Below, in pieces: positions 16,883 through 43,070 of a DNA stretch of 55,886 nucleotides. A program made the position numbers and the translations under genes. Location of the stretch: the NCBI RefSeq assembly GCF_902809815.1, contig NZ_CADDIL010000003.1, positions 109,887 to 165,772 of the forward strand, read 5' to 3'. Under the pieces are notes generated by a model, which worked only from the letters and a program-made list of their open reading frames with translations, was not told where the DNA came from and made no database searches. This DNA comes from Spiroplasma endosymbiont of Danaus chrysippus. GTDB lineage: Bacteria; Bacillota_I; Bacilli_A; Mycoplasmatales; VBWQ01. Numbering within the stretch: position 1 is the first letter of the stretch; each line of letters starts with the position of its first letter.

Positions 16883-16931
16883 AAATAAATGATACTATAT
16901 TTAATTTAAATTACTATTAAATATTAAATAT

Positions 16932-16969
16932 AATAAAAAAGATTTATTTTAAAATAAATCTTTTTTATT
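16932..16969. terminator. Terminator after the 16974 gene
   Basis: Stem AAAAAAGATTTATTTT with its complement, A and T runs on both sides. It closes the leftward gene that ends at 16974 and separates it from the HemW-like gene. Confidence 0.85.
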
Positions 16970-16973
16970 ATAT

Positions 16974-18509
16974 TTATGTTCGTGCTTTTCAATGTTGTTC
17001 TTTTGCAATATTTTTATTTCCTTTTGAAGAAATTTTAGTTTTTCAAGAAGGGTAATTTTCACCTTTACTTTTTGCATTAACAATATTCATTGGATCTAAA
17101 TTATATAATTCAGTTGTTCCTTGTTGACTAGTAGGACGATGTAGAACAATAGTTCAAGAGTAAGTTTCTAAGTTATCTGCTGCACTATAATCAGTAGTAA
17201 ATGAATCACGAAACATTCAAGCACCACCATAATCTTTACGATATAATTTATCACTAACAGCATCAATTATTTCCGCTTTTTCTCAAACAGCTTCAATTTG
17301 TTCTAGTGTTCAATGGCGAGTAGCAACTTTTTGCACTTCGATTGTTTCTTTTTTTGTTTTTGTGTTTGTTTTCTCTATTATTGGTTGTGTTTCTTCAACA
17401 GTTATTGTTGTTGCTTGTTCATTAAAATTAGATATTTCAGATTCAGAATAACTATTGTCTTTAACATCAAAACCACCTTGATTTTTTGGTTGGTAATTAG
17501 TTTCGTTATTAATATTACTTTCTGTTGTTGGTGATTTTGAATATATTGTTGTATCTTCTACACTTGTTTTTTCAACTGTTGGTTCTGAATATATTGTTGT
17601 ATTTTCGATATTATCATTTATTTCTTCTTCATTTGTAATAGATTCGGATTTAAGATTAGTAAGAGTACCTGGTGTTGGTGAAACAGTTTCGGCATGATAA
17701 GCACCTTGCGTTGGTGTTTGTGATAGTTCATGATTAGTATAATGGACAGTTGTTGTTGAAGGGTTAGTGATTATTTTTTCTTGTGTTAGATCTTGCTTAA
17801 GAACAGTATTGTTAGTTTCTTGTTGTTCATTATTTTGAGGTACTGGTATTGGTACGACGTTAGGAAGCGTTATCGTATCATCAACTTCTTTTTTTGCTAT
17901 TACTGTTTCTTGTTTTGCTTTTGGTTTAGCAATAGGCATTAATAGTGTATTTGATTTGTATTTAGAGGTAATATTAATAATTAATCAGAGACTGTGGATT
18001 AATAAAAGTATTGCAAATAGTTCAGCCAACATTCATGGTAAAAAAGCTATTAGAAAGTTACCGGTTGTATTTATTATTTCGCCGTCTTTTTTATTAGCTA
18101 AGAAAGAAAAAGTTTTAAATCTAAAAATAAAAAATACAATAAGAAAGATAACAAATATTGCTGAAAAAATAAAACTTATTAAACAAAAAAGTGCTGATAC
18201 ACTATTTTTAGTTTTTAAAAAAATAAAAGGTACGACTACTAATGCTAAAGATAAACCATAGACTATGAAAACAATAATACTTATTATATTGAAACTAATT
18301 TGTAAATTAGAATTAGGTTGTTTTGGATTATTGAATCATTTAATATAGTTATCAACTGCATCTCGACCAATAGTTGTTCATAAACCCCAACCTATCATTA
18401 AACTCGTAGTAATTAGAAGGCCATTAATAAGAATTGTTAATTTGCTATATAGACCAATACGATAAATTTTTGGTTCTTTCATTGAACTAGAATTTATTTC
18501 CTCTATCAT
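16974..18509 (-). CDS. Membrane protein with degenerate HNH-like C-terminal domain
   Basis: A 511-residue protein. Residues 1-190 hold about four membrane segments (LTILINGLLITTSLMIGWG, a second near 55-80, and two more up to 185). Residues 190-395 are a low-complexity Thr/Glu/Asn/Pro linker with repeated blocks (TTIYSEPT, TTIYSKSPT). Residues 400-510 form a compact domain: HWTLEQIEAVWEKA, then YRKDYGGAWMFRD, then NLDPMNIVNAKSKG. This follows the pattern of an HNH-nuclease-like domain found at the end of many bacterial proteins, but the DH pair is replaced by VLHRP, so catalysis is unlikely. Start at 18509 after a weak GGGG site. It is a single gene with its own terminator; the role is unknown. 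Confidence 0.6.
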
Positions 18510-20600: not shown

Positions 20601-20816
20601 AGGGCGCATCACTTTAACTCCTAGTTTCATAAAATAACAAAGAACGATATAACTATCGTTCTTTTTTTGTTAAAAGATTAAAACTTCATAAAACTGTCGT
20701 AGAAGTCTAATAGTGAGTACAAAATGTAAATACTTCTATATCAGAATAAAAGAGCATTTAATGTTAAGCAAGTTAAAATGTTACACTGTATCGCTTAATG
20801 TAATTATAGATTAATT
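20601..20816 (+). repeat. 216-bp inverted repeat, left copy (phage terminator and leader)
   Basis: Identical, base for base as far as I could compare, to the reverse complement of 25480-25695. It consists of the last bases of a capsid gene (GGGCGCATCACTTTAA), a terminator, and the first part of the folded early leader. A diverged third copy begins at 54602. Confidence 0.9.
20639..20668 (+). terminator. Phage terminator (left copy)
   Basis: AAAGAACGATA pairs exactly with TATCGTTCTTT around TAAC, followed by T's. In the late module the same hairpin directly follows the capsid-like gene (25627-25657), which shows its native job. Confidence 0.88.
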
Positions 20817-21195: not shown

Positions 21196-21318
21196 ATGGA
21201 ATATAGAGAATATAGAATGAATAGTTCTTGTGATAAATGTAGAAAACAATCTTCTTTTGGTAATAGATTATGTAATAAATGTTTTTGAATATTAATAGGT
21301 AGAAAAAAATATGAGTAA
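21196..21318 (+). CDS. Small zinc-ribbon protein, 40 aa
   Basis: Contains CDKC and CNKC about 16 residues apart, a four-cysteine zinc-binding arrangement. The start at 21196 follows GAAAGGAAA, and the 3' end overlaps the next gene by 8 bases. A near copy sits at 55188. The role is unknown, perhaps nucleic-acid binding. Confidence 0.75.
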
Positions 21319-21952
21319 ATTTATTTTTAAAAAAGAAACTCATCAATATTTTTTAGAAAATAAAGAATTAATATCTGTTTCTAGAATTATTGATAATTAT
21401 TTAGGTTTTGGATATAGTCATATAGCACCAGAAGTATTAAAAAATGCTTCAGTTCGTGGTAAATGAGTTCATAAACTTAATGAATTATATTTACAAAATA
21501 TTAATCAAGAAAATATAATTAATAATTTATTAAAAAAATTAAAACCAGTAACTAATAATATAAATTATTCTTATTGTAAAAAATCACTTATATTTTTACA
21601 AGAAAAATTTAAAGATAAAAATAATTATGAATTTATTATAGAAAAACCTATTAATGATAGTGTAATTGCTGGAACACCAGATTTAGTTTATTGAGATAAA
21701 AAAGAAAATAAATATTATTTAGTAGATTATAAAACTTATGCCTGTATAGATGATGATAAATTAAAAAGAATTAAATTACAATTAACTGCTTATTATTGTA
21801 TGTTACTTGCTAATGGTATATGGCCATCTAATAAAACTTATGTTTATTTAACTAATAAAAATACTCAAAAAGAAATAGAAATTGAAATAACCAATGAATT
21901 AATACTTGAATGAATAAATGCAAAAACAAATTATTTTAAAGGAGAAAAATAA
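21311..21952 (+). CDS. PD-(D/E)XK-family phage nuclease
   Basis: 213 residues. The catalytic core of a RecB/Cas4/lambda-exonuclease-type fold is visible: GTPDLVYWDKKE, then YYLVDYKTY, and a downstream LQLTAYYCML helix with a conserved Gln and Tyr. Such nucleases resect DNA ends for annealing by RecT, which is encoded four genes later, so the two probably form a phage recombination pair. The start overlaps the zinc-ribbon gene by 8 bases, typical of translational coupling. The copy in the second prophage, at 55304, is cut by an IS256. Confidence 0.8.
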
Positions 21953-22374: not shown

Positions 22375-22482
22375 ATGGATAATCAAACTTTAATTTTATT
22401 AAAACACTTAGGAAAAATTAATAAAAAATTAGATGAAATTTTAGAATTATTAAATAAAAAAGGAGAAGAAAATAATGAGTAA
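22375..22482 (+). CDS. Phage early micro-protein, 35 aa
   Basis: A single amphipathic helix (LLKHLGKINKKLDEILELL). ATG after TAGGAGAAA, with the stop overlapping the recT start by 8 bases. It could be a leader peptide coupling translation to recT, or a small binding partner. Confidence 0.55.
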   Translation: MDNQTLILLKHLGKINKKLDEILELLNKKGEENNE

Positions 22483-23320
22483 TAATACTAAAAATGAATT
22501 AAAAATTCCTAATTTTATTAAAAGTAATAAAGAAGAATTATTAAAATTTAGAAATTATTATGAAATGATTATAAATTCTAGTAAAGATTTAAAAAATATG
22601 AATACTCAAAGTTTAATTAATGCATTAATTAATTTATATAAGTTAAATCTTTCAATTAATCCTATAAAAAAAGAATTAGCATTAATTCCTTATGGTGATG
22701 AATTACAAGTGCAAATTCAAGAAGATGGTTGATTAACATTATTGCAAAGAACTGGATTAGTTGTTGATTTTCAAAGAGAAAAAATAACAACTGCACATAA
22801 ATTTAATAAAGAAAATAATAAATGAGAAATTAATCCAGCATTAATTTTTGAAAGAAAAACAATTAATACTATTGGTTATTATTGTTATATTTCACTTTTA
22901 GATAAAAATGGTAAAATTAATAATTTTTATAAAGGAATGACTGTTGAAGAAATTAATCAACATAAAGATAAATATGGCAAAACTTATAATAAAAAAAGTC
23001 AAGAATGAAAATTAAATCATATATGAACTTCTGCTTTTGACCAAATGGCTTTAAAAACAGTTGTAAAAGCATTAATTAGAGAAATTAATAAAACACCAAT
23101 TATAGTATTAAATAATCAAGATGATATTAATTTAGCACTTCAATTAGACCAAGGTGTAGTAATTGATGAAGAAACAATTGCTTATAAAGATAATACTGGT
23201 GAAGAAGTTAAAATTATTAATTCAAATAATGAAACTGATAATAATGATTTAAATTCTGCTTTATCTAAATTAGAAGAATTAGAAAAAGAAGAAGAAATAA
23301 TAGAAAGTTTTGAAGTTTAA
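22475..23320 (+). CDS. recT: RecT-family single-strand annealing protein
   Basis: A 281-residue phage recombinase that anneals complementary single strands during replication or recombination. Family signs are the N-terminal block (NTQSLINALINLYKLNLSIN, then PYGDELQVQI) and GWLTLLQRTG. The region WTSAFDQMALKTVVKALI corresponds to the conserved C-terminal core, and an acidic tail follows. The start at 22475 is behind AAGGAGAAG. It pairs with the PD-(D/E)XK nuclease at 21311. Because the host ruvA is broken in this window, phage recombination genes may matter to genome plasticity, but that is inference. Confidence 0.88.
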
Positions 23321-25479: not shown

Positions 25480-25695
25480 AATTAATCTATAATTACATTA
25501 AGCGATACAGTGTAACATTTTAACTTGCTTAACATTAAATGCTCTTTTATTCTGATATAGAAGTATTTACATTTTGTACTCACTATTAGACTTCTACGAC
25601 AGTTTTATGAAGTTTTAATCTTTTAACAAAAAAAGAACGATAGTTATATCGTTCTTTGTTATTTTATGAAACTAGGAGTTAAAGTGATGCGCCCT
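25480..25695 (-). repeat. 216-bp inverted repeat, right copy
   Basis: Reverse complement of 20601-20816. Here its native context is visible: it starts inside the last codons of the capsid-like gene and runs through the terminator into the early leader, then is cut off at 25480. Confidence 0.9.
25627..25657 (-). terminator. Terminator after the capsid-like gene
   Basis: AAAGAACGATA/TATCGTTCTTT hairpin with T run on the minus strand, about 22 bases after the capsid-like stop codon. Confidence 0.9.
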
Positions 25696-26740
25696 CAGCA
25701 GTTGGAGTTGCTCCAACCATAGTAATAGCACCTAAATTAGTAAATTCAATTGCTGTAGCAATATCAATACTTGAAGTAACTGTAAATCCTTTAACTAAAT
25801 CTGGTCTTAATGCTTTACCTTCTGAAACTAAAAACTTATGAAAATTCTTAACATTACCATTACTTTGTAAAACAAAAGTATTATCTTGACGACGATTAAA
25901 TGGAAATGCTAATGCTTCTTTATGTACTAATACAGCATCACATCCTAAAAAATTAAATGATTCTTGTTTATCAATAACTCCAGCTGGATAATTTCTTCCT
26001 AATCATGGACATTCTATAATTTTAATACCACCAATTTCTACAATTTTACCATCTTTTAATGCTTGACTTGCACTATCACTACCTAAAGTTGTAGTTGATA
26101 ATAATACTAAAGGTTTAAAGAAACTAGATACTCATAATACATAATCTTCTTCATCTGTACCAATATATTCATCATTAATACGTGCTTTTAATGTTGCTAA
26201 TGTATTTGATATTTTTAATCATAAAAGCATACGATAATCATCTATTTTTGGATTACTTGGTAATGCAATATTAATAATGCCATTATCTTTGGCTGTTTTA
26301 ACTGCTAATGATAATAATTTAGCAACTAAATATATTTCTACTGATTTTGCTTTTCCATCAATTCAACTTGATGCTAAACTATCTGATACAAGAACATTAC
26401 CATCTTCATATTTAGCACCTAATAACTTTAAATCTAATGTTTCTTCTTCAAAATTAATTTCTTTCTTTTTATTTAAAAGAATTTGTATTGTATCTGCTGT
26501 TGTTAAATTATTTGCACCAGCACCAGCAGTATAATCTTCAGTAGGATTTCTTTTTGTAATATTATAAATAGCAGTACCAGCATCTAATTGTTCTCTATTT
26601 TCTACTGTAGCATTAATTAATGCAACTCTTTTTGATAATAAAACTTTTAAATTTTTAATATATTTTACTGATAAATCTAATTTACCCGTTGGATTACTTG
26701 GGTCATTAATTGTTGTTAATTGTGTTGTAATAATTGCCAT
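25679..26740 (-). CDS. Putative phage major capsid protein
   Basis: 353 residues. It starts at 26740, two bases after the stop of the scaffold-like gene, and ends with TAA at 25679-25681 inside the inverted repeat. The N-terminal part (LDLSVKYIKNLKVLLSKRVALINATV) and middle (SFFKPLVLLSTTTLG, GRNYPAGVIDKQESFNFLGCDAVLVHKEA) have the composition and secondary pattern of HK97-type capsid proteins. The order portal-like, scaffold-like, capsid-like and terminator supports the call. Sequence identity to a named family cannot be claimed by eye. Confidence 0.6.
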
Positions 26741-37184: not shown

Positions 37185-37931
37185 ATGAATTTAGAACAAT
37201 ATTTAGATGAAATTATTAAATTTTTACAAAGTGAAGTAAAAAAAGCAAATGCCAAAGGTTTAATTGTTGGTTTAAGTGGTGGTGTTGACTCAGCAGTAGT
37301 AGCATTATTGATTAAAAAAGCTTTTCCTAATAATCATTTAGCATTAATTATGCCTTGTTTTTCACCAGATATTGATTTAGAATATGCAAATAATTTAGTT
37401 AATATTCATAAATTAAATGCCAAAGTAGTTAATTTAAATAATGTTTTTTTAAGTTTTAAAAAAACATTAGAAACTGAAATTAATATAGAAAAATTAAAGT
37501 TAATTTTAGGCAATTTAAAAGCTAGATTAAGAATGAATACTCTTTATGCATATGCACAAAATCATAATTATTTAGTTGTAGGAACAGATAATAGTGATGA
37601 ATGACACATTGGTTATTTTACTAAATATGGTGATGGTGGTGTTGATTTATTACCAATTATTCATTTGTTAAAAAAAGATGTTTTTGCTGCAGCAAAGATA
37701 TTAAAAGTTAGTGAAGAGATCATTATTCGTAAGCCAACTGCTGGTTTATGAGATGGACAAACTGATGAAATGGAAATGCAATTTAAGTATGAACAATTAG
37801 ATCAATATTTACTAGGAAATAAATCATTAATACCATCATCAGTAATTAATAAAATTGAATTTATGCATCAGAATAGTGCACACAAAAGAATACCTGTACC
37901 GCAAGCTCCGAAATGAACAAGAAAAAAATAA
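37185..37931 (+). CDS. nadE: NH3-dependent NAD+ synthetase
   Basis: 248 residues. It makes NAD from nicotinate adenine dinucleotide, ammonia and ATP. The PP-loop is [10 protein letters not shown] (residues 28-37). The NAD-substrate part has [20 protein letters not shown] and the C-terminal loop [15 protein letters not shown]. No glutaminase domain, so it uses free ammonia as in most Mollicutes. It follows rmuC by 2 bp (RBS within the rmuC 3' end). Confidence 0.95.
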
Positions 37932-37943
37932 AGGAATGAGAAT

Positions 37944-38666
37944 ATGGCTGGACATTCACAATATGCAAATATTAAACATCGTAAAGATGCCCAAGATAAC
38001 AAACGTGGTAAAATTTTTCAAAAATTATCAAGAGAAATTTATGTTGCTGTTAAATTAGGTGGTGCAAATGTTGAAAATAATCCGCGATTGAAATTAATGT
38101 TAGAAAAAGCACTACGTATAAATATGCCAAAGGATAATATTAATCGTGCTATTAATAAAGCTAGTAATAAAAATGAAACAACTAATTATGAAGCAGTCAC
38201 TTATGAAGGATATGGACCAAGTAATATTGCCATAATTATTCATTGTTTAACTGATAATAAAAATCGAACTGCAAGTAATATTCGAAGTTATTTTAATAAA
38301 TTGGGTGGTCATTTAGCTGCTACTAATTCTGTTCAATATTTATTTCAAACAACTGGGGTAATTCAATTTTCAAGTTTATTATCAGTTGAAGAAATTTTGG
38401 AGTTAATAATTGATTTTGAAATTTTTAATATTGAAAAAAATGAAGATATCATTGATATTGAAGTTAATCCTAAACAGTTAAATGCTGTAATTAATTTATT
38501 AGAAAAAAATAATATTAATGATTTTATTACTAATGAAATTGTTAATATTCCCCATGAATTGATTACCATTACTGATCAACAACAAATTAAATTAATTGAT
38601 ATATTGTTAGAAACAATTGAAAATGATGATGATGTTCTTTCAATTGAACATAATTTTAAAAAATAA
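37944..38666 (+). CDS. yebC: YebC/PmpR-family protein
   Basis: 240 residues, typical for the family. The conserved N-terminus MAGHSQYANIKHRKDAQD and the block YEGYGPSNIAIIIHCLTDNKNRT are present. YebC proteins act as transcription regulators or, as recently shown for some members, as ribosome-associated factors that relieve stalling at proline runs. The start follows GGAATGAGA. It is placed before ruvA, an arrangement common in bacteria (yebC-ruvC-ruvA-ruvB). Confidence 0.94.
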   Translation: MAGHSQYANIKHRKDAQDNKRGKIFQKLSREIYVAVKLGGANVENNPRLKLMLEKALRINMPKDNINRAINKASNKNETTNYEAVTYEGYGPSNIAIIIHCLTDNKNRTASNIRSYFNKLGGHLAATNSVQYLFQTTGVIQFSSLLSVEEILELIIDFEIFNIEKNEDIIDIEVNPKQLNAVINLLEKNNINDFITNEIVNIPHELITITDQQQIKLIDILLETIENDDDVLSIEHNFKK

Positions 38667-38675
38667 AAAGGTTTA

Positions 38676-38690
38676 TTTTTTTTTTTTTTT
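38676..38690 (+). repeat. T15 homopolymer between yebC and ruvA
   Basis: Fifteen T's in a row, ten bases after the yebC stop. It lies upstream of the broken ruvA. Long runs like this vary in length and could alter transcription read-through. Confidence 0.8.
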
Positions 38691-38730
38691 CATCTAATTA
38701 ATAGTAAGAATAGAAAAGGAGGAATAAGTC

Positions 38731-38975
38731 ATGGATGAATATTTTTAGGTATTATTAAAGAATTTTATGAAAATAAAATTATTTTTGAATGTAATGATCA
38801 TGGATATATTATTGAAGGTGTTAATTTACAAACATTACCATTAAATATTAAAGTGAAAATTTATGTTTATTTTCATCAAAAACCAACTTATGAACAATTT
38901 TTTGGGTTTGTATCAAAACCAATAAAAACCTTTTTTATTCACTTACTTAATATTAGTAATATTGGACCAAAAACT
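38731..38975 (+). pseudogene. ruvA: ruvA, frameshifted and cut by IS3
   Basis: The start is behind AAAGGAGGA. After MDEYF the frame stops at a run of five T's; with six T's it would continue LGIIKEFYENKIIFECNDHGYIIEG (in two parts: LGIIKEFYENK and HGYIIEG), VKIYVYFHQKPTYEQFFGF and ISNIGPKT, which is the RuvA N-terminal OB-fold and first helix-hairpin-helix. The gene is then cut by IS3 copy C after about 80 codons. The missing part includes the second HhH and the RuvB-binding domain. No ruvB is seen beyond the insertion, so RuvAB branch migration may be lost in this strain. Confidence 0.85.
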
Positions 38976-40115
38976 GGTGGTTAGCCCTAAATACTGGACC
39001 ACTTTTGGATAGACAGTTTTAAATTTTTATTTGTGAAATTGGTGGTTTTAGAAATTTAGAATGTATTCTTTCGTAATTATAAAACATAATATATTGGTTT
39101 ACATCATTTATAGCTTCATTGAGAGAAAAATATTGATTTGAACCTTTAGGTAGTCATTCTTGAGATAAATGAGAAAATCAGTTTTCAGATATTACATTGC
39201 CACCAATATCATAAGGTTGTTTTTTGCTTAAAATTATTTGCTTATCAGCAGCTCAATTTGTGATGTCTTGACAATAAAATTCGTTGGCGTTATCTGAGTG
39301 TAAAATAACGTTTTTTACTTGGTTTCAAGAGAATTGTTGATTTATTTTTTCAAGTGCAGGAAGGATTAAATCTTGATAGGATTTGTTTGAACATGTATTA
39401 TAGCTTACAATATTATTTGAATAAAAATCAATAATTACAAAAAGATATAATCAACCTTCTTTAGTATTTATTTGTTTAGTGTCCATTGATCAAATTTGAT
39501 TTGAAGAGGTTGTACTTTTATAATCTTTGTTTACTTTATCCATTGTAGGTATTCACTTATTTGGATTTTTTTTGTTTTTAGGATAGTTATTTTTAGTTTG
39601 TTTTAATCCTTGAAGATTGTGATCTTTCATAATTTTTCGCATTTGTTTTGTTGATAATTCTAGATTTAAAATAATATGTTTGTATTGTTTTAATCATTCT
39701 TTAAATGCTGAAAAAATTCGTAAATAGCCATAAATTTGTCCTTTTCTTGTAAAATGAAATTCAAGTAAAAGTTGGCATAATTCTTGATATTTATGTGTAC
39801 AATTACTAATTTGATTTTTTTCTTTTTTAATAGGGTTTTGTTTGTTTTTTACAAAATAATATGTTGATCGGTTTAGTTGAAGATGTTGGCAAAGATATCT
39901 AATTGAATATTGGTTTTTGCTATCATCAATAATTTGAATTTTTTGTTTGATATTTAACTTGTTAATTACTAATGCTATTTGTTTAATTTTATCCATTATT
40001 AAAAATCCTTTCATGTCAAAATTAGTGTTAATTGTATAACACAATTGTTTTTCGAATACATTCAAGTTTTTTTTTAAATTAATGGTCTAGTAAAAAGGGC
40101 TAAGTAGCAAGTAGC
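38976..40115 (-). mobile_element. IS3-family element, copy C
   Basis: About 1.14 kb, nearly identical to copy A. GGTGGTTAGCCC at the left end and two AAGTAGC heptamers at the right end. Left flank is ruvA; right flank is an unrelated membrane-protein remnant, so the two flanks do not rejoin into one gene. Confidence 0.9.
39019..40065 (-). CDS. IS3-family transposase (copy C)
   Basis: 348 residues from the first ATG, or 325 from the better-supplied ATG at 39996. Same DDE residues and open frame as copy A. Confidence 0.87.
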
Positions 40116-40466
40116 CATATTAATATTATTATCAGAGCAATATTTTTTTAATTGACAATAAGAATTTTTATCAATAAATAATTTTAATTTAATTTTTTTA
40201 AATTTAATTTTTTTATTTTTTCTTTTAATTTTTAATTTGTTTTTTATACTGTTTCAAAATCTAAATTCTGGATGTTGATTTTTATATATAATCATACATC
40301 CTATAAAAGTTCCAATAATAGGTAATGAAATAGTTAATAAAAAAATACCAAAAACTTTATTTTTTTACATAAAACTATTCCTTGCATAATTGGTACAAAT
40401 AAAACAATACCACCAAATATTAAAACTGCTAATGATATAATTGCTCAGTTGGCATATATTTATAAT
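40116..40466 (-). pseudogene. Small membrane protein remnant, frameshifted
   Basis: Two hydrophobic helices (AIISLAVLIFGGIVLFV and GIFLLTISLPIIGTFIG) are followed by a very basic tail containing NQHPEFRFWNSIKNK. The start region near 40460 and the junction between the helices (near 40370, a run of T's) are shifted in frame. The 3' end is cut by IS3 copy C. Helix-plus-basic-tail proteins of this kind are common in Spiroplasma filamentous phages, but no specific match can be claimed. It shares a 73-bp segment with the transposase pseudogene at 40681. Confidence 0.5.
40212..40284 (-). repeat. 73-bp inverted duplicate (copy 1)
   Basis: Exact reverse complement of 41174-41246. It encodes the same peptide in both places (NQHPEFRFWNSIKNKLK), once in the basic tail of the membrane-protein remnant and once in the transposase remnant. 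Confidence 0.85.
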
Positions 40467-40518
40467 TCCTTTTCTATTTATATTTTTCTTTATTGTACAT
40501 TATTTTATTAAAAAAAGA

Positions 40519-40544
40519 AAAGATAACTAATAAAAGTTATCTTT
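40519..40544. terminator. Hairpin between two pseudogenes
   Basis: AAAGATAACT pairs with AGTTATCTTT around a 6-base loop. Flanking T and A runs are short. The remaining sequence between 40467 and 40680 shows no gene. Confidence 0.55.
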
Positions 40545-40680
40545 AAACGTTGCAATAGATTTGCTAGTTATTTCAATTGTTCTTTAACATTATACTCTAA
40601 AACCAAACATTTTTCAAGAATATTTTAACAAATTTGTTAGAATAGTTAGGATAAAAAAATAAATAGAAAGGTGTTAAAAA

Positions 40681-41561
40681 ATGTTTAATTATAAAAATAA
40701 TCTTGAATATGAAATGAATATGAAATTAATAGAATTATAACAAATCATGTTAATAAAATCCATGCTTTTGATGAATATTTTTTTCAAAATAAAGATAAAG
40801 ATAGATATAAAGTTGCTAAAAAATCTAATCGTAGTATTATTTTTGAATTTGGTAAAATGATTTTTAATCAAAGAGTTTATTGAGATAAATTAAAGAAAAA
40901 ATATTATTATCCAGTTTATGAAGAGTTTAATATTGAAAAAAGAGCAAAAATTATTAGTTGATTAAAAGAAGAAATAATATCATATATTGGAAGAAAGAAA
41001 CATTATCAAGATATACAAGATATTTTAAAATTTACTTATGTTTCAAAAGTAACAATTAGTAAAATTCATAAAAATGCAAAAGTTCAAGAAAAATTACCAG
41101 AACAAAAATTTAAAGTTAAAAATAGTGAATTTATTTATATTAATGCTGATGATTGTTATTTTCCTGTTTGAAATAAAAATCAACATCCAGAATTTAGATT
41201 TTGAAACAGTATAAAAAACAAATTAAAAATTAAAAGAAAAAATAAAGTTAATCCAGAAAATTTAAAAAACTTTTTAAAGGCTTGAAAATATTTTTGTAAT
41301 GGTCAATATGATGAATTAATAGCATTTTTAATTGAAACGAAAGTAAATAAAGATACTTTAAAGATTTTTGTAAATAATAAAGAAGGTATTATAAATCAAC
41401 CTGCTATTTGAAATATTGGTTGCAGTGCAGAAAGTGATATTCAACATTTAGTTAAATCTCAAACTAAAGGTGCAAAAATATATGCTTATCCAACATTAAT
41501 TAATATGTTAATGGCTACAGCTAATTATTTAAATAGTAAAAATTATATTAATAGTGCTTAA
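40681..41561 (+). pseudogene. UPF0236/ISLre2-type transposase, chimeric and frameshifted
   Basis: Starts at 40681 behind GAAAGGTG. After MFNYKNNLEYEMN the frame shifts and continues INRIITNHVNKIHAFDEYF and onward. INADDCYFPVW is the hallmark of the Mbov_0401/UPF0236 group. The central part that should hold GD..KWI and DKFH..H (as at 20045-20600) is missing. In its place lies the 73-bp segment shared with 40212-40284, in frame, after which homology resumes (KNFLKAWKYFCNGQYDELIAFL) to the stop at 41559. The result is a transposase without its core. Confidence 0.7.
41174..41246 (+). repeat. 73-bp inverted duplicate (copy 2)
   Basis: Same 73 bp as 40212-40284 in the other orientation, 889 bp away, forming an exact inverted repeat. 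Confidence 0.85.
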
Positions 41562-41667
41562 TAAGTTAAAACTTAATATTTTTAAAAACTAATTTTAAGA
41601 TTAGGATTTTTGTGTTATTTAAATGTAATTTTGTAATTATATTTTTTAATATTTTAAAAATTTATGG

Positions 41668-41673
41668 TATAAT
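41668..41673 (+). promoter_or_regulatory. Extended -10 promoter upstream of infC
   Basis: TATGGTATAAT contains TATAAT preceded by TGG (extended -10). The -35 is weak, as often with extended -10 promoters. It would give a leader of about 270 nt before infC. Confidence 0.55.
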
Positions 41674-41679
41674 TTAATT

Positions 41680-41946
41680 AAGAAATATTTAGATTTGCTA
41701 GTTTTATTGTTTGAAGTTAGAAAATCTATCCGTTATATTAATTCGTCCACATATTAAAAAAATCTTGTAATTTATTAAAAATCTAATATAATAATACTTG
41801 ACATAAAGAAAGTAGTTTTTACGCTCACCTGATAGCTAAGTTGTTATAGGTTCAATGCTTTAAATTTTTATTTTTAAAATAAAGTTTTGTAGTGGTGAGT
41901 GTGCGTTTTAGCACAATTTTATTTATGCAAATTAAAGGAGGTATGT
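41680..41946 (+). promoter_or_regulatory. Long leader of infC-rpmI-rplT, probable L20-type autoregulation
   Basis: Non-coding. CTCACC (about 41824) can pair with GGTGAG (about 41895), and GTGC/GCAC with a following T-rich tract (about 41900-41925) forms a terminator-like hairpin before the Shine-Dalgarno AAAGGAGG. In low-GC bacteria this operon is controlled by L20 binding to its leader. The match here is by position and general shape; no L20-site consensus is proven. Confidence 0.5.
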
Positions 41947-42489
41947 ATGGCTTTTAAAAATAATGATAATTTATGAAATAGTAATATTCCCTTTTATGAA
42001 TTTTTATTAATTGGTAATGATGGTACTAATTATGGTTTAATGAAAAAAAATGATGCTTTAAAAAAAGCAGAAGATTTAGGATATGACCTATTATGTATAT
42101 CACCAAATGCTAAACCACCTGTTTGTAAAATGTTTAAATTTGATACATATCGTTTTGAACAACAAAAAAAGGAAAAAGAAGTTAAAAAAGCACAAAAATT
42201 AACAATTGTTGAAGAAAAAGAAATTCGACTAAGTGTTGTTATTGATAACAATGACATTAAAACAAAGGCAAATAAGGCTCGTAAATTTCTAAGTAATGGT
42301 AACAAAGTAAAAGTTACATTAAAATATCGTGGTCGTGAATTACATAATCCTGAAGCAGGATTTGAAGTAATTACAAAATTTTATAAAGAATTAGAAGATA
42401 TTTGTATTTATGATAAAAACTTTGATAAAAAAGAAAAAAATATACAAACTATTTATCTTTTTCCAAAAAAGAAAAATCAAGAAAATTAA
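41947..42489 (+). CDS. infC: Translation initiation factor IF-3
   Basis: 180 residues. N-terminal domain with IGNDGTNYGLMKKNDALKKAEDLGYDLLCISPNAKPPVCK, given here in parts: GLMKKNDALKKAEDLGYDL and ISPNAKPPVCKMFKFD. The C-terminal domain has RLSVVIDNNDIKTKANKA and VKVTLKYRGRE. It keeps ribosomal subunits apart and proofreads the start codon. It starts with ATG rather than the rare AUU/AUC that limits infC in many bacteria, after AAAGGAGG. First gene of infC-rpmI-rplT. Confidence 0.96.
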
Positions 42490-42505
42490 CAATAGGAGGT
42501 AAAAT

Positions 42506-42694
42506 ATGCCAAAAATGAAAACAAAAAAAGCTTTAAAAAAAAGAATTAAAGTAACAGGAAGTGGTAAATGAATGCGTAGTGGTGCTTTTGTTTCTCACTT
42601 AGCTCAAAATAAAACAACAAAACAAAAACGTCAATTACGTGGGTGAAGTGAAGTATCTGCTTCTGACTATAAGCGTTTAAAAGATTTAATTTAG
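42506..42694 (+). CDS. rpmI: Ribosomal protein bL35
   Basis: 62 residues, basic, with the family N-terminus MPKMKTKKALKKRIKVTGSG. It follows infC by 16 bp behind AGGAGG. Structural protein of the 50S subunit. Confidence 0.96.
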
Positions 42695-42710
42695 GAAGGT
42701 GACAAAATAA

Positions 42711-43070
42711 ATGGCTAGAGTTAAAGGTGGTTATACAACTAATCATCGTCGTAAAAAAATACTAAAAGCAGCAAAAGGATATTATGGAGCAAAACATAGT
42801 TTATATCGTACAGCAAATGAACAAGTAATGAACTCATTAGCATATGCTTATCGTGATCGTAAAAATTGTAAACGTGAGTTTCGCAAGTTATGAATTCAAA
42901 GAATTAATGCAGCTGTTCGTAATTATGATTTATCATATTCACGTTTTATTGATGGCTTAAATAAAGCTAATATTAATCTTAATCGTAAAATATTGTCTGA
43001 GTTATCAATTAATCAACCAGAAGAATTTGAAAAATTAGTTTTGGCATCAAAATCTGTTTTAACAAAATAA
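42711..43070 (+). CDS. rplT: Ribosomal protein bL20
   Basis: 119 residues. It begins [19 protein letters not shown] and carries the conserved RINAAVR motif. Needed for early 50S assembly and probably the repressor of this operon through the leader. Start 16 bp after rpmI behind GGAAGGTG. Confidence 0.97.

Follow-up and report, generated by a model that had tools for sequence, protein, structure and literature searches.

Inverted copying of 48 bp from a neighbouring gene as the probable origin of a chimeric prophage transposase pseudogene in a Spiroplasma endosymbiont of Danaus chrysippus

In the genome of the Spiroplasma endosymbiont of Danaus chrysippus two neighbouring pseudogenes of opposite orientation share a segment which is identical both in its letters and in its reading frame, and this raises the question of how a piece of one gene could come to lie inside the other. 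The locus belongs to a stretch of 55,886 nucleotides of contig NZ_CADDIL010000003.1, which was analysed at its full length and is called the window; all positions refer to it. The repeat search of the window places the arms of this inverted repeat at 40,212–40,285 and 41,173–41,246; they are 74 nt long, 100% complementary, and separated by 887 nt, and both encode KNQHPEFRFWNSIKNKLKIKRKNK in the same phase (UGA read as Trp). A 32-base piece of the repeat, sought with up to 3 mismatches, gave 2 matches in the window and 0 in 100 shuffles, and the DNA fold of the region consists chiefly of the expected long stem between the arms. The initial annotation described this as an in-frame inverted repeat of 73 bp; its orientation and the common frame are confirmed, while the length proved to be 74 bp and the transferred part only 48 bp. 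The reading that we prefer, with a probability of roughly four in five, is a non-reciprocal copying, in which a prophage transposase gene lost 327 bp and received 48 bp of its inverted neighbour instead.

The recipient is a pseudogene of an Mbov_0401/UPF0236-family transposase (40,681–41,561, plus strand), recognised by profile matches and by comparison with intact siblings. Its open frame at 40,857–41,561 (234 codons with UGA as Trp) spans the chimeric tract, while the upstream frame is disrupted by a separate lesion, an 11-bp tandem duplication at 40,705–40,726 (plus strand) found by comparison with the sibling L091. The product of this ORF reaches 129.5 bits with the NF046004 profile (Mbov_0401 ICE-type transposase), which is under the cut-off of 162 bits, and the intact siblings L091 and L092 exceed the cut-off with 268 and 259.9 bits, respectively; with PF06782 the window protein is again under the cut-off and the same two siblings are over it. 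The transposases of L091 and L092, the two copies to which profile scanning was applied, also match UPF0236, and they match the ISLre2 family under its cut-off. Judged by these sequence comparisons, the window transposase is a decayed relative of the Mbov_0401 family. The 327-bp segment that is missing from it encodes in L091 a VVSGDGAGW stretch, which we take to hold the second catalytic Asp of DDE enzymes, and if this stretch is part of that centre, the window transposase lacks a complete DDE catalytic centre. The family resembles Mbov_0401 ICE-type transposases in the NF046004 scores of its intact members but differs in its setting, since here the gene adjoins prophage terminase-type genes and does not belong to an ICE; in the window it is also broken. 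ISLre2 and the mycoplasma ICEs are assigned to the Mutator-like DDE transposases in passages of PMC3942029, which name neither Mbov_0401 nor UPF0236.

The other partner is the remnant of a 105-codon prophage membrane-protein gene (40,130–40,500, minus strand), delimited by open-frame comparison and serving as the source of the copied sequence. In L089 and L092 this gene is a 105-codon open frame next to a terminase-like ORF, in L096 it has 106 codons with one ORF in between, and the neighbours in L092 match GP3_package (small terminase) and Terminase_3. Against its own genome the query region gave at least 73 matches, many of them weak, and at least 5 copies besides the window (L002, L007, L010, L011, and L012) are continuous across the membrane gene and the transposase. 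The two genes are divergent neighbours of one prophage, which recurs in this genome and in relatives, and in view of these copies across genomes the description of them as unrelated pseudogenes in the initial annotation has to be abandoned.

The prophages L089, L091, L092, and L096 carry terminase-type genes beside an Mbov_0401/ISLre2-like DDE transposase (the families being scanned in L091 and L092), and this transposase may be their integration enzyme. For the 105-aa membrane protein no match was obtained in phages, 7 stretches of viral_contigs fit the membrane-protein pattern with none of them confirmed as a relative, and the DNA of the region has weak matches in 1 phage record and 8 plasmid records, at about 70–74% over 8–10% of the query; on these grounds an origin of the membrane gene from a known phage or plasmid record was rejected. 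The prophage homology ends on the right at approximately 41,748, the infC-side flank common to the relatives starting at 41,722–41,756 depending on the relative, and from 41,722 to the query end at 42,900 this flank is 99% identical to genome G002. On the left the prophage remnant adjoins a transposase with an rve domain (39,019–40,065, minus strand; domain search), which we read as IS3-type. The sequences on the yebC-like and infC sides of the region 37,900–42,900 are separated by about 0.7 Mb in G002 and by about 0.4 Mb in G005, which places the prophage remnant and the adjoining rve-type transposase on a rearrangement breakpoint.

Comparison with the intact siblings permits the native state to be defined and both breakpoints to be placed. 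The left junction contains the 10-bp word ATAAAAATCA at 41,173–41,182, the copied core of 48 bp occupies 41,183–41,230, where the native transposase gene has 327 bp of its own, and the right junction contains the 16-bp word TAAAAGAAAAAATAAA at 41,231–41,246 (all on the plus strand). When a pattern with both words was sought, 5 of the 6 sibling loci matched, namely, L089 and L094 from this genome and L091, L092, and L093 from G002; the native length between the words is 327 bp in L089, L091, L092, and L094 and 326 bp in L093, in comparison with 48 bp in the window. The sixth locus, L096, failed the strict pattern, and its copy is split at the same site by BLAST. The net change is −279 bp, or 93 codons, and 109 codons were exchanged for 16.

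The same breakpoints were obtained by BLAST of 41,120–41,300 against six genomes of the genus, where at least 6 intact copies (two in this genome, G000, three in G002, and one in G004) are split at query positions 61–63 and 112; that is, the alignments stop at 41,180–41,182 and restart at 41,231. The one uninterrupted match among the matches listed is the window itself. Exact breakpoints from intact family members had been proposed in the initial annotation as a check, and they are provided by the two words which bound the native segment of 327 or 326 bp; the search of other strains for the chimera, suggested there too, returned it from one of the six genomes and from none elsewhere among the matches listed. 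A 26-mer of the chimera gave 0 matches in genome_contigs and viral_contigs, and the control 26-mer of the intact form also gave 0 in genome_contigs, so that the scan of genome_contigs carries no information on other strains.

The donor arm (40,212–40,285, minus strand, 74 bp) is the tail of the prophage membrane gene, for which a homologous tail is present in the sibling prophages, and sequence related to the tract forms the natural end of membrane-gene homologues both in this genome and in others. Within it the copied core lies at 40,228–40,275, flanked by the donor copy of ATAAAAATCA at 40,276–40,285 (identified by comparison with sibling transposases) and by the donor copy of TAAAAGAAAAAATAAA at 40,212–40,227 (both minus strand), the latter being the longest word common to the donor and the intact transposases of L091 and L089 in this orientation. 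Because the intact transposases and the donor alike contain the 10 and 16 bp at the outer ends, these words existed before the event, and therefore only 48 bp were required to move; the full 74-bp tract is now an exact inverted copy of the sequence lying 887 nt away. Collinearity of the donor region with its closest paralogue, L028 (96.8%), extends through the whole of the arm, which indicates that the donor was left unaltered and the change was non-reciprocal. Reciprocal exchange and simple inversion are ruled out by the same collinearity.

It is less certain whether the tract was taken from this very neighbour or in trans from another prophage copy, such as one on a sister chromosome or a paralogue lost since then. 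The prophage is multicopy, as the own-genome matches of the region attest, and L028 demonstrates that a close paralogue of the donor region exists. However, among the loci compared the exact 48-bp core is found only in the two arms of the window, and L028 shows 3 differences from it over the 48 positions, although the weight of these differences is limited, as some of them may have arisen in the lineage of L028 and other homologues have the letter of the window at some of these sites. On balance a donor in trans is unlikely, if still to be reckoned with, and from the sequences compared the local membrane-gene copy appears to be the best donor.

The microhomologies at the two junctions are not of equal value. 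Under random placement of the junctions an overlap of at least 10 bp is expected with P = 4.8e-4 for L091 and 4.0e-4 for L089, and an overlap of at least 16 bp with P = 3.8e-5 and 3.7e-5, respectively. In simulated pairs of similar composition a common 10-bp word occurred in 300 of 300 for each of the two siblings (L091 and L089), whereas a common 16-bp word occurred in 5 and 7 of 300. Hence the left junction would by itself be weak evidence, and it is the right junction that bears the weight. Microhomology is nevertheless found at both junctions between the donor and the native recipient, 10 bp at one and 16 bp at the other, in agreement with the BLAST breakpoints.

According to these data the native state, the donor, both breakpoints, and the microhomologies are established at the level of sequence comparison, and their best reading is microhomology-primed template switching or fold-back copying. 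A break or a stalled fork within the transposase gene would leave a 3′ end at one microhomology, which would fold back over about 900 nt and pair with its inverted counterpart in the membrane gene; synthesis primed there would run over the 48 bp and the second microhomology, after which the extended end would be released and annealed across the gap, 327 bp further along. Either side may have served for priming, and the 16-bp side would offer the more stable primer. The frame was retained because the codon phase of the two microhomologies, which encode KN and KRKNK, is common to the donor and the recipient gene. With this shared phase and with the upstream frame broken by the separate lesion, no selection for the frame is required, and such selection was set aside as unnecessary.

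Annealing and synthesis were probably independent of RecA, as recA is now a remnant in this genome. This remnant (G000:C1:159201-159371; L103) matches positions 2–58 of 262 and has an open frame of 79 codons. Among the relatives, G004 and G005 have near full-length recA matches without stops, G003 has one match with 6 internal TAG, G002 has three broken pieces, and G001 has no match; in S. citri LB 319, recA and related genes are described as absent or truncated in passages of PMC8140453. The RecO_C domain (24.8 bits at a cut-off of 22.1) and the DNA_pol_A domain were found in the genome, and Ku gave no match in it, in a search where the control matched 1 of 14 named genomes. Help with the annealing might have come from RecO or from a RecT-like protein of the prophage. 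The domain search also identified in the window a prophage PD-(D/E)XK exonuclease (21,311–21,952, plus strand) and a prophage RecT-like annealing protein (22,475–23,320, plus strand), and it may be guessed that these two possibly formed the annealing machinery for the event.

The absence of any difference between the arms fits a recent event, but it fits equally an artefact of the laboratory or the assembly, in which template switching by a polymerase in vitro, for instance in multiple displacement amplification or through fold-back reads, could produce the same inverted junctions with microhomology. Chimeric reads from amplification are well known, and the chimera was seen in one genome of six among the matches listed. 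Against this, two separate junctions, the second of which returns to the same gene 327 bp further on, would need to prevail in the consensus; also, the infC-side flank with its identity to G002 indicates that the neighbourhood is not scrambled, although a flank is no test of the junctions themselves. An artefact is accordingly considered improbable.

The templated replacement between close inverted sequences that was proposed in the initial annotation agrees with the inverted and non-reciprocal character of the change, with the local donor as the best match, and with the microhomology at both junctions. Of the two mechanisms named there, template switching fits, while classical gene conversion, which depends on RecA and acts between inverted homologous sequences, fits poorly. 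The transfer is non-reciprocal with the donor retained, and the arms are perfectly identical, as gene conversion would also produce. However, substantial homology flanking the converted tract was not found, since by the intact siblings only 10 and 16 bp are common at the tract ends, the tract substitutes 327 bp of unlike sequence, and recA is truncated in the present-day genome, so that gene conversion has only a very small chance of being the correct explanation. Natural variation of this transposase family receives practically no credit and was ruled out, as the six copies seen to have both flanks are split at this site, the window protein stays under the NF046004 and PF06782 cut-offs which the two scanned intact copies exceed, and the tract, whose natural occurrence in intact UPF0236 transposases would have spoken for it, was not seen in the intact siblings.

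Copying of this kind, primed by microhomology, is already known in E. coli and yeast, and the window adds one clear natural example. The quasipalindrome-associated template-switch mutation of E. coli, described in passages of PMC7202029, is the same kind of process: the arms are inverted, the opposite arm is copied, and a perfect inverted repeat results. In E. coli, however, the substrates are near-palindromes which form hairpins, whereas here 887 nt separate the arms, which were formerly unlike, and 327 bp were lost as well; in the siblings no hairpin-forming imperfect palindrome was found at this place but only scattered short words, the longest of 16 bp, spaced by about 900 nt. At yeast breaks, according to passages of PMC11724301, fold-back templated inverted insertions of 10 to >150 bp arise at imperfect 10-bp inverted microhomology, so that there too local sequence is inserted in inverted orientation; but the loop in yeast was 41 nt and the far end was joined by NHEJ with 0–5 bp of microhomology, in contrast to about 900 nt, 16 bp, and no Ku found here. 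Homogenisation of inverted-repeat arms in yeast coding genes (passages of PMC8604942) is another case in which template switching alters protein sequence, although it concerns up to 5 neighbouring residues and short pre-existing inverted repeats, as compared with the 109 codons replaced by 16 here. In Salmonella the confirmed spontaneous rearrangements end in short direct or inverted repeats, as passages of PMC3411829 report. In a literature search of partial coverage the papers on microhomology, template switching, and gene conversion among the matches listed made no mention of Spiroplasma; in the same coverage no paper joined UPF0236 with Spiroplasma, and for bacterial templated inverted events only a methods guide was returned.

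The value of the locus lies in the fact that a natural templated inverted replacement can be seen here together with its donor, its native state, and its two microhomologies, and that the recA of the bacterium is a remnant. The locus indicates that pseudogene chimeras can form without long homology, and it suggests a contrast of the relatives with full-length recA (G004 and G005) against the genomes without it (G000, G001, and G002). By itself it is a single mutational fossil in a dead gene from which no function is expected, and the support consists of one event only.

A wider idea is that in RecA-less spiroplasmas microhomology-primed inverted copying, perhaps driven by RecT and the exonuclease, recurrently remodels multicopy prophage genes and sometimes fuses them in frame; this we regard as a long shot. 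If it were true, a further product would be the copy at 25,480–25,695, which forms with 20,601–20,816 a perfect inverted repeat (216 of 216 identical). The 25,480 copy sits where the sibling L146 has 2,607 bp (2,606 bp in L140) between the flanks, with overlaps of 3 bp and 1 bp, and it terminates the ORF at 25,679–26,740 at 353 codons (396 in L089); five further copies in this comparison match at 95–99%. One of its ends, however, coincides with the usual start of many copies of that sequence (query position about 591–603), which makes one-ended transposition or a later deletion an equally good explanation, and the 216-bp pair was not counted as a second template-switch event. Perfect inverted matches of at least 24 bp within 5 kb were also scanned in the window and in ten stretches (L089–L098). 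In the window the matches listed were the 74-bp pair, the 20,601/25,480 pair, and a 26-bp hairpin at 16,925–16,976, and L089 had one inverted match of 834 bp, apparently formed by oppositely oriented copies of the rve-type transposase. The other nine stretches contained no inverted match of at least 24 bp within 5 kb, and since L089–L098 yielded no similar short inverted copy, frequent recurrence is disfavoured.

The transposase remnant itself is not uniform in its relationships. Its 3′ part past about 41,340 (41,340–41,700) differs by 7–8% from the siblings, which differ by 2–4% among themselves, these right-flank figures leaving out L091, because the homology to that copy stops early; the 5′ part differs from the siblings by 1–2.5%. 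By its divergence pattern the remnant looks like a mosaic of prophage lineages, and other exchanges appear to have occurred in the element.

Short direct repeats, TAGATTTGCTAGTT, were noticed by eye at 40,556–40,569 and 41,690–41,703, one on each side of the transposase gene. Both of these flanks, again by eye, are altered and yet mutually alike in L009 and L010, as if they were co-converted or left by insertion.
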